From positions 186,001 through 250,000 of the forward strand of contig NZ_AUHD01000006.1 in the NCBI RefSeq assembly GCF_000423005.1: DNA of 64,000 nt, read 5' to 3'. The notes under the pieces were generated by a model. That model had not been told where the DNA came from, searched no databases, and saw nothing but the letters and a program-made list of their open reading frames with translations. The position numbers and the translations under genes are program-made. The DNA is from Gelidibacter mesophilus DSM 14095. GTDB taxonomy: Bacteria; Bacteroidota; Bacteroidia; Flavobacteriales; Flavobacteriaceae. Below, piece by piece: positions 46,307 through 63,857 of the stretch; position 1 is the first letter of the stretch, and every line of letters begins with the position of its first letter.

Positions 46307-46692
46307 TTAAAAATTTAGTTTTGCTTTCATTAGGATGAAAAGCTGATAGTTTAGTAAATATATACGTAAAGTGTATTTTAAAAGACGGTGACGTGCCAAA
46401 GTTTAATAAAACTTTAGCAATTTTCATTTTGCCTCATCTACTTGGGCTTAAAGTTTGAAAACGTGATGCTATAAGCATTAGTGACAATAAATAAAAAGGC
46501 TATTGATGGTCATGCGTTTTCTAAATCTGCGCCAAGCAATATTATAGCTGAGCTGCAAATATACTTGAAGTAGACTTGGTTAAAAATAGTTTTAAATTTT
46601 ATTTAGAGATTTGGCTAACGACTACTTGTAAATTTTTTTTCAAAGAAAACTTACTGCAAAATGGTTTTGTTTTCATTATTTTGGCATCCATT
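46307..46692. other. 386-base divergent spacer upstream of the folK fusion
   Basis: AT-rich with no convincing reading frame. The folK frame is open upstream to about 46576 but has no family match there, so this is not coding. No clear promoter pair found; TATTTTG just before the ATG is one base short of the -7 consensus. Confidence 0.55.
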
Positions 46693-47844
46693 ATGACCCT
46701 ACCCCACAAAGTTTATATTGCACTTGGCAGTAACAAAGGCGACAGATTGAAACATCTGCAAGATGCCATAGATCTGGTATTTAAAAATCTTGGAAAGATC
46801 AATATCATTTCAAGGGTTTATAATACACCAGCGTTGGGTTTTGAGGCAGGTGCGTCTGTTGATGATTTTTTGAATACCTGTATTTTTATAGAAACCCATT
46901 ACACTGCTGATGAGGTGATGCAGAAACTTCTCGATATTGAAACCAAACTAGGACGCACAAGATTACTTGGAAACGGTTACGAATCTCGAACTATTGATCT
47001 TGATGTGCTTTTTTATGATGACGCTATTATCTCGTCAAAATTGATCACTACGCCGCATCCACAGCTGCACAGGCGTAAATTTGTACTACAGCCTTTAAAT
47101 GATATTGCCTCTAAGGTGGTGCACCCCGTGCTTAAACAATCAGTTTTGGAGCTTTTAGAGTGCTGTGAAGATGTTAGTGCCATTGAGCCAATCAATATTT
47201 GGTTGAAAAATCCGATGAAGCAGTATAAGTTTGGCAATTATAATTATATCGCCATCGAAGGAAATATTGGTGCGGGAAAAACAAGTTTGACGCATCAGAT
47301 CTCTAATGATTTCAATGCCAAACTCATTTTAGAACGCTTTGCGGACAATCCATTTTTGCCAAAATTTTACGAAGAGCCACAGCGTTATGCCTTCACTTTG
47401 GAGATGTCGTTTCTGGCCGATCGATATCAGCAAATTAGTGATGATTTATCGCAGTTGGATTTGTTCAAGGATTTTATGGTAAGTGATTATGATATTTATA
47501 AATCGTTGATTTTCTCTAAGATTACCTTGCCGGAAGATGAATTTAGGCTGTATAGGAAGCTTTTCTATCTGATGTATAAAGATATAGCCAAGCCAGACCT
47601 ATACGTCTATTTATATCAAAACACAGAACGGCTGCAAGAAAATATCAAAAAGCGCGGGCGTGACTATGAGCAGAACATTCAAGATGACTATCTTGAAAAA
47701 ATCAATACGGGTTATCTGGAGTTTCTGAAAAATCAGACGGAACTGAATGTGAAAATAATTGATATCTCTAACCGGGATTTTATCGAGAATAGAGCAGATT
47801 ATTTATGGATTTTAGAGCAGATTTGTGAGAAGCAGGAAGGTTGA
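46693..47844 (+). CDS. folK: HPPK (FolK) fused to deoxynucleoside kinase
   Basis: 383 residues from ATG 46693. Residues 1-165 are 6-hydroxymethyl-7,8-dihydropterin pyrophosphokinase: VYIALGSNKGDR, KLGRTRLLGNGYESRTIDLDVLFYDD, TPHPQLHRRKFVLQPLNDI. Residues about 180-383 are a deoxynucleoside kinase: Walker A GNIGAGKTS (from 190), LERFADNPFLPKFYEEP, and KKRGRDYEQNIQDDYLEKINTGY. So one chain joins a folate step to deoxynucleoside salvage. No stop or frame break lies between the halves. The kinase substrate cannot be read from the sequence. Confidence 0.92.
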   Translation: MTLPHKVYIALGSNKGDRLKHLQDAIDLVFKNLGKINIISRVYNTPALGFEAGASVDDFLNTCIFIETHYTADEVMQKLLDIETKLGRTRLLGNGYESRTIDLDVLFYDDAIISSKLITTPHPQLHRRKFVLQPLNDIASKVVHPVLKQSVLELLECCEDVSAIEPINIWLKNPMKQYKFGNYNYIAIEGNIGAGKTSLTHQISNDFNAKLILERFADNPFLPKFYEEPQRYAFTLEMSFLADRYQQISDDLSQLDLFKDFMVSDYDIYKSLIFSKITLPEDEFRLYRKLFYLMYKDIAKPDLYVYLYQNTERLQENIKKRGRDYEQNIQDDYLEKINTGYLEFLKNQTELNVKIIDISNRDFIENRADYLWILEQICEKQEG

Positions 47845-62933: not shown

Positions 62934-63857
62934 TTATCGTCTTTGGTAAGTAATAAATGAGAATGGATACTTATGATTCGCGTCCGTTTGGTGAAGTTTG
63001 TTCTCCGTTTCTTTCCATTCTGTAGAATCAATCTTTGGAAAATAGGTATCGGCATCAAACCGTTCATGAACTCTTGTCAATTCTATTTTATCAGCGTAAG
63101 GCATCGCTTCTTTGTAGATTTCGCCTCCACCTACAATAAATGGTTGTGTGTCATTTTTTGCGGCATCCAGAGCATCTTCAATATTGTGGACTACAATGAC
63201 ACCGTTGGGAACTGAATAATCATGTTGACGAGTGATTATAATGTGTGTTCTGTTTGGAAGAGGTTTCGTAAAACTTTCAAAAGTTTTTCTGCCCATGATA
63301 ATGCAATGGTCCAAGGTTAAACTTTTAAAACGTTTGAGATCATCACTCAAATGCCACACTAACTTATTGTCTTTGCCAATGGCGTCATTTTCTCCAGCCG
63401 CAGCAATTAGAGTTAGATTTTTATGAACTTTCGTTTTTTTTTCAGGTGCTAGGGTAGTTTGAGCTGGAATTATAGCAGTTTCAATAGGATGGGTTTTTTC
63501 AAGGTCTGTCTGAAGTTCTGCAATACGCTTTTTTTGTTTGGCTACCAATTTGTTCAGTTGGGCCTCTTCCCAGGATTTACCCATAAATTTATGGGTAACA
63601 AAAACGTTAAAAAGATGGAAAATAAAAAGAAATAACCATGCTAAAATAGCAAATACAAACCAATCCAGTCCCCAAATCTTAGTGTGTTCACCTACACCAA
63701 GAACCGTGTTTAAAACAATTAAAAAAATGGCGCCTATTAAAAAAATCACAAAATGATAATATAGGCGTTTTTTCTGCTTGATTCTCTTTTGTGAATTCTC
63801 AATGAGCTCCAATTGCTCTCTGTCAATTTTGTCGACCGGTTTCTTTTTTCCGAACAT
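62934..63857 (-). CDS. folA: Two-TM domain fused to dihydrofolate reductase
   Basis: 307 residues from ATG 63857 (MFGKKKPVDKIDREQLEL). Residues about 25-110 form a 2TM-type domain: KRLYYHFVIFLIGAIFLIVLNTVL, then WGLDWFVFAILAWLFLFIFHLFNVF, a short KFMGKSWEEAQLNKLVAKQKKRI helix, and a linker. Residues about 143-307 are DHFR: LTLIAAAGENDAIGKDNKLVWHLSDDLKRFK, IIMGRKTFESF, FIVGGGEIYKEAMP, and SFITYQRR. The enzyme is therefore tethered to the membrane. TAACTTTA (63882-63875, minus) is a possible -7 element. Confidence 0.9.
   Translation of the reverse strand: MFGKKKPVDKIDREQLELIENSQKRIKQKKRLYYHFVIFLIGAIFLIVLNTVLGVGEHTKIWGLDWFVFAILAWLFLFIFHLFNVFVTHKFMGKSWEEAQLNKLVAKQKKRIAELQTDLEKTHPIETAIIPAQTTLAPEKKTKVHKNLTLIAAAGENDAIGKDNKLVWHLSDDLKRFKSLTLDHCIIMGRKTFESFTKPLPNRTHIIITRQHDYSVPNGVIVVHNIEDALDAAKNDTQPFIVGGGEIYKEAMPYADKIELTRVHERFDADTYFPKIDSTEWKETENKLHQTDANHKYPFSFITYQRR

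Follow-up and report, generated by a model that had tools for sequence, protein, structure and literature searches.

Few enzymes have been studied as much as dihydrofolate reductase (DHFR), the product of folA; it is a classic target of drugs and is treated as a freely diffusing protein. FolA is normally soluble and about 160 residues long. In the window analysed here, a stretch of 64,000 nucleotides from Gelidibacter mesophilus DSM 14095, the DHFR domain is preceded in frame by a membrane module of the 2TM type, and the locus raises the question of whether a DHFR is held at the membrane, how such a gene arose, and what the arrangement may serve. The reading favoured here, with a probability of about 0.72, is that a two-helix hairpin with both ends inside, together with a flexible linker, keeps a catalytically competent DHFR at the cytoplasmic side of the inner membrane, that a folA-linked 2TM gene was fused to folA and sits near thyA, and that this tether places or controls the enzyme.

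Architecture of the fusion gene

The gene is a single open reading frame (ORF) of 307 codons and a stop on the minus strand of the window. Its features are as follows.

62934..63857, minus strand: 2TM::DHFR fusion gene (folA), 307 aa, by ORF and Pfam; start and architecture common to relatives
63543..63797, minus strand: 2TM domain (PF13239), residues 21-105, by Pfam; folA-type by profile scores
63693..63749, minus strand: first hydrophobic segment, residues 37-55, by hydropathy; model helix 13-51
63600..63656, minus strand: second hydrophobic segment, residues 68-86, by hydropathy; model helix 66-91
63417..63542, minus strand: cytoplasmic helix end and variable linker, residues 106-147; model helix 94-122, pLDDT below 50 at 123-141, 52% identity, median dN/dS 0.36
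62940..63416, minus strand: DHFR domain (PF00186), residues 148-306, by Pfam; active-site positions intact

Both domains score well above their Pfam cut-offs, 2TM at 74.3 bits (cut-off 24.8) and DHFR_1 at 209.1 bits (cut-off 25), the latter covering model positions 2-159 of 159. The original prediction of a 2TM module in frame ahead of DHFR is thus confirmed, and its ORF coordinates are exact. The frame stays open upstream of the 307-aa start. The start motif MFGKK- is common to all ten close relatives compared (the first ATG of each frame was taken), and in the eight Gelidibacter loci the frame opens just four codons ahead of it; therefore, the 307-aa start is supported. The nearest named relatives are Gelidibacter, at 78-80% identity.

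A sequencing or assembly error that joined two genes was the doubt raised with the prediction itself. Homologues in which the 2TM part and DHFR are separate genes do exist, in sixty genomes; however, the fusion is present in all eight Gelidibacter loci found by a similarity scan and in 71 of 149 family genomes, and these independent genomes reduce the chance of an error in the window to almost nothing. The same 71 genomes rule out a fusion that is peculiar to G. mesophilus.

The fusion gene is the sole PF00186 match in the G. mesophilus genome, which is rated 100% complete. A hidden second soluble DHFR was rejected as a candidate, since the search of the genome with PF00186 gave no further match.

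The DHFR domain

The active-site positions, which we take to be W22, D27, F31, R44, T46, R57, G95, G96, and T113 in the numbering of the E. coli enzyme, are all nine present in the window DHFR. Across the 149 family genomes just two of them vary, G96 (140 G, 8 A, 1 E) and W22 (148 W, 1 C). An AlphaFold2 model of the fusion protein matched solved DHFR chains with TM-scores by target of 0.81-0.91 among the best 50 matches. On these grounds of sequence and model, the window DHFR would appear to be catalytically competent. It shares with the chromosomal FolA (PF00186) the complete domain, the fold, the active-site positions, and the status of sole match; however, it bears an N-terminal membrane hairpin and a linker, whereas FolA is normally soluble with a chain of about 160 residues, a length also found among the DHFR chains compared.

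Whether some DHFR might also be made free of the hairpin depends on internal initiation. In the window gene, the stretch from 15 codons before to 5 codons after the start of DHFR contains no ATG, GTG, or TTG, and such initiation is unlikely there. Among the fused genes, an ATG is found near the DHFR start in 10 of 71, and any of ATG, GTG, or TTG in 28 of 71; therefore, it is possible that some fused relatives also make free DHFR. According to a published study, the folA genes of two Flavobacterium species, when cloned, gave trimethoprim resistance in E. coli, and the folA neighbourhood is conserved in Flavobacterium (PMC7725336). The constructs were presumably without the 2TM gene, and therefore the Flavobacterium DHFR would work apart from its native partner, which speaks against a strong need for the tether.

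The membrane hairpin

Hydropathy identified two hydrophobic segments in all 71 fused proteins of the family survey and in 59 of the 60 separate 2TM proteins. The mean number of lysine and arginine residues in the fused set is 10 before the first segment, 1.1 in the loop, and 6 after the second. Since the positive charge lies before the first and after the second segment, both ends of the hairpin are predicted to be inside (N-in, C-in), and the fusion DHFR is predicted to be an integral protein of the inner membrane. The AlphaFold2 model (mean pLDDT 77.7, pTM 0.50) consists of helices at residues 13-51, 66-91, and 94-122, a low-confidence stretch at 123-141, and then the DHFR domain. At this pTM the mutual orientation of hairpin and DHFR is undefined, and therefore a contact between the two is not readable from the model.

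Among eleven close relatives, identity is 83% in the N-terminal part, 85% in the 2TM domain, 52% in the linker, and 81% in the DHFR domain. The median dN/dS values of the same eleven are 0.05, 0.03, 0.36, and 0.06, respectively, and they are rough, as the unsaturated pairs among the 55 numbered 15, 20, 46, and 37. Judging from the similar identity and dN/dS, selection appears to constrain the hairpin to about the same degree as the enzyme, while the linker is poorly conserved.

Distribution in the Flavobacteriaceae

The family sample comprised 149 Flavobacteriaceae genomes from 148 genera, selected out of a larger group and all with a completeness of 90% or more. DHFR was present in all of them, with one match in 147 genomes and two in G058 and G094; the match is single in 70 of the 71 fused genomes. 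The lengths of the DHFR ORFs are bimodal: 71 measure 291-356 aa and the other 78 measure 161-223 aa. Of the 149 loci, 71 are fused, 60 carry the 2TM part as its own gene immediately before folA on that strand, and 18 are without 2TM. The 2TM profile used to sort them was grown from the window protein and trained on the sequences that were sorted, and Pfam served as the independent check: both domains were found in 71 of 71 fused proteins, and 2TM in 60 of 60 separate upstream genes.

In 42 of the 60 separate pairs, the closest start codon of folA falls within the 2TM gene or overlaps its end; in 53 this codon lies between 20 bases inside that gene and 10 bases after it, and the widest gap is 89 bases. 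The folA ATG overlaps the 2TM stop as ATGA in 27 pairs. In five genomes (G020, G022, G028, G085, and G127) the two ORFs are in the same frame and just one stop separates them; G111 has two such stops, and Flavobacterium sp. 28A again has one. Three named Flavobacterium loci (L251, L254, and L255) have the separate form. Same-frame pairs with a single stop are the kind from which gene contact could produce a fusion, an origin already suggested for the window gene; the 60 separate upstream genes and the frequent overlap lend it support.

Among genomes of up to 2.2 Mb, 12 of 15 are without a folA-type 2TM, compared with 6 of 134 larger ones (sizes are rounded, and the rows are related and not independent). 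Loss mostly in small genomes fits an accessory trait. The tether is dispensable, since 18 of the 149 genomes lack it, and three of these branch within the large, mostly fused clade of the DHFR tree.

Two loci are irregular. In Flavivirga aquimarina (L242:6740-6931), a 64-aa DHFR-like ORF lies about 1.8 kb downstream of the fusion and could be a remnant or a duplicate. In G128 (L102:3059-3256), the 2TM start is in another frame near an A run, which indicates a fused gene that is broken or misassembled; an upstream frame that resembles the end of thyA stops just before this fused gene.

The folA-type 2TM subfamily

A profile (A3) of 60 separate 2TM proteins, which favours the folA-linked kind by construction, was run over 118 genomes of the order. 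It gave 18 matches of at least 138 bits, all from Flavobacteriaceae (18 of the 21 family genomes sampled); G115, G197, and G202, the other family genomes of this sample, had no strong match. All 18 lie beside or within a DHFR gene, and 13 of them are absent from the A3 alignment. The next-best match was 70.9 bits in the family, and the best outside it 62.7 bits. On the 18 genomes of the family survey without an adjacent 2TM, A3 gave no match in 13 and a weak one (at most 60.4 bits) in 5, while two positive controls scored 219 and 181 bits. A 2TM model trained on folA-linked sequences scored such stretches at 110 bits or more, and others at 15-75 bits. By these scores, the hairpin of the window protein is a member of a folA-linked subfamily of Pfam 2TM.

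Beyond the family, 95 of the 97 order-sample genomes from other families had a DHFR match, none with an ORF longer than 249 aa, and a scan within 1.5 kb of 20 of their DHFR loci found no 2TM. In a phylum sample of 198 genomes, the 2TM domain was found in 45, of which 19 are Flavobacteriaceae; the 2TM ORFs of the 26 others are either up to 223 aa or 447-480 aa long (roughly the size of the 2TM histidine kinase of G. mesophilus), with no DHFR fusion.

Five residues in or near the membrane helices, H35, W66, W74, H81, and W96, are invariant in all 131 folA-type 2TM proteins. Among 80 other 2TM stretches, H81 is kept in 54, W74 in 64, and W96 in most, and these three positions are largely general to the 2TM family. 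Four positions predicted to lie outside the membrane, K29, Q100, L104, and Q108, are conserved in both fused and separate forms and differ in most of the 80 other stretches, of which 16 keep L104. As a separate observation, the invariant set of histidines and tryptophans exceeds what a plain anchor would seem to need.

Elsewhere in the G. mesophilus genome, a single locus (L002/L003; G000:C1:495917-496458) encodes another two 2TM domains: the gene of a histidine kinase with a C-terminal 2TM overlaps that of a small 2TM protein, near a LytTR response regulator. Clusters of 2TM ORFs with similar sizes are present in other family genomes. The association with histidine kinase and LytTR is found at L002/L003 and not at the fusion gene. 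The Pfam 2TM family, as represented in this cluster, has the two hydrophobic helices in common with the 2TM domain of the fusion, and most of the 80 other stretches share H81, W74, and W96 with it; however, the 2TM of the fusion is folA-linked, has no kinase attached, and has a higher score with the folA model.

A rival interpretation is that the 2TM part regulates DHFR, by turnover through a membrane protease or by a signal that the hairpin senses, and does not serve to bring the enzyme close to a partner. The signalling context of the other 2TM domains in the same genome and the five residues that never vary among the folA-type proteins agree with it, but, as the counts for H81 and W74 indicate, these residues are in part shared with 2TM proteins at large, and regulation instead of placement is judged unlikely.

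Gene neighbourhood

A further check concerned the DNA beyond the end of the window, where a partner gene such as thyA had been suggested. It was found there, at contig positions 250589-251404 (minus strand), 0.73 kb upstream of the fusion and on the same strand. In minus-strand order, the genes are a BFN nuclease, a CNT nucleoside transporter, thyA, a CBM48-type gene on the opposite strand, 2TM::folA, and, in the window, a CLC channel. Since the small CBM48/AMPK1_CBM-type gene on the opposite strand (L154:7036-7452, plus) lies between them, thyA and the fusion are probably not one transcript in G. mesophilus.

The arrangement is common in the family. An upstream thyA that shares strand and contig with folA and is no more than 10 kb away was found in 69 of the 71 fused loci, in 54 of the 60 separate ones, and in 14 of the 18 tether-less ones. 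Seven of the tether-less loci have thyA no more than 100 bases from the DHFR match; none of the remaining 131 loci does, and there the 2TM part fills that space. Apart from this, in G058 (C17:9598-10944) a second thyA adjoins the second, weaker DHFR match; this genome has 7% contamination, and the segment may be foreign DNA.

The FolK fusion that had been remarked upon 15 kb away is real (window 46576-47844, plus strand): HPPK (FolK) is fused to a deoxynucleoside kinase domain (PF01288 and PF01712). However, nothing was found that links it to 2TM::folA.

Two known systems invite comparison. The bifunctional DHFR-TS of protozoa resembles the window gene in that DHFR stands in a fixed relation to another module and serves the thymidylate cycle; however, the partner in the window is a membrane hairpin, and ThyA is encoded by its separate gene upstream and is not part of one chain. 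In mammals, a thymidylate-synthesis complex is found at the nuclear lamina. The likeness lies in the idea of a DHFR held at a membrane-linked scaffold, but the mammalian scaffold is another protein, whereas the putative scaffold of Flavobacteriaceae would be covalent or encoded by an adjacent small gene.

Evolution of the fusion

Phylogenetic trees were constructed from the DHFR sequences and from both domains. In the DHFR tree (181 rows, quick method), the window protein falls into a clade with an SH-aLRT support of 96 that holds 67 rows, of which 64 are fused and 3 lack 2TM. On this tree, 8 changes are required for the fused state, compared with 58.5 in shuffles, and 3 of the 8 are forced by the best-supported branches. 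When 11 rows (long branches and near-copies) were removed, 7 changes remained, and a single fused clade was not rejected (AU p 0.08). The two-domain tree of 130 rows, which left out the 18 rows without 2TM and the long-branch G048, requires 6 changes, 2 of them forced, and the AU test of a single origin gave p 0.046. With a midpoint root, 65 of the 71 fused rows of this tree belong to one clade, while G009, G039, G053, G097, G102, and G103 are elsewhere. Both AU values are borderline. Several fusions are likely rather than certain; there was probably one main fusion and a few independent ones, with the tether lost at times, mostly in small genomes.

It is conceivable, if rather improbable, that the fusion is neutral: translationally coupled neighbours with unrelated jobs would have been joined when a stop was lost or the frame shifted slightly, and then locked together by loss of the folA start, the membrane location being a tolerated side effect. 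The overlapping pairs and those in one frame with one stop or, in G111, two, the single stop in Flavobacterium sp. 28A, the poorly conserved linker, and the 61 of 71 fused genes without an ATG near the old start are what such a history would leave. However, unrelated neighbours are expected to separate at times, and a strong folA-type 2TM is never found away from folA, either in the 18 strong matches of the order sample or in the 18 family genomes without one beside folA; the subfamily-specific residues common to fused and separate forms also argue against unrelated jobs. Once the folA start codon was lost, a fusion may still persist by a ratchet without benefit.

Proposed scheme for the tethered DHFR

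Architecture, the sole PF00186 match, distribution, gene order, conservation, and predicted topology were computed, and from these we infer membrane location in vivo, activity, and purpose. The favoured reading, a tether that places or controls a competent DHFR, can be potentially described as follows. The ancestral state may have been a pair in which a separate 2TM gene stood directly upstream of folA, mostly overlapping it or a few bases away. The two would then have become one reading frame in a lineage that includes Gelidibacter, and probably independently in a few others. In the fused protein, the hairpin and the flexible linker would hold DHFR at the cytoplasmic face of the inner membrane, while in species with separate genes the 2TM protein may recruit or regulate the enzyme. 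Directly or through the separate 2TM protein, the tether most likely brings DHFR close to the machinery for nucleoside uptake and thymidylate synthesis, or regulates how much of the enzyme is present there.

A more specific proposal, which we offer tentatively and hold to be somewhat doubtful, is that Flavobacteriaceae have a dedicated membrane scaffold for DHFR, in which the folA-type 2TM binds the enzyme non-covalently when separate and is covalently joined to it when fused, with a membrane-bound thymidylate cycle near ThyA and the nucleoside transporter.

Significance

Among the matches listed in the open-access literature, there was no description of a membrane-tethered DHFR or of a link between 2TM and DHFR; the architecture may well be present in domain databases. 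The family offers a natural comparison set of fused, separate but adjacent, and lost forms, by which the localisation of a folate enzyme becomes testable, and the folA-type 2TM subfamily gains a function that can be tested. In most of the fused genomes (70 of 71), the only DHFR match is a predicted integral membrane protein. If true, the scaffold reading would put the dihydrofolate recycling of thymidylate synthesis on the inner membrane. Overall, an enzyme that textbooks describe as soluble, and that serves as a drug target, probably acts at the membrane in a large part of the Flavobacteriaceae.
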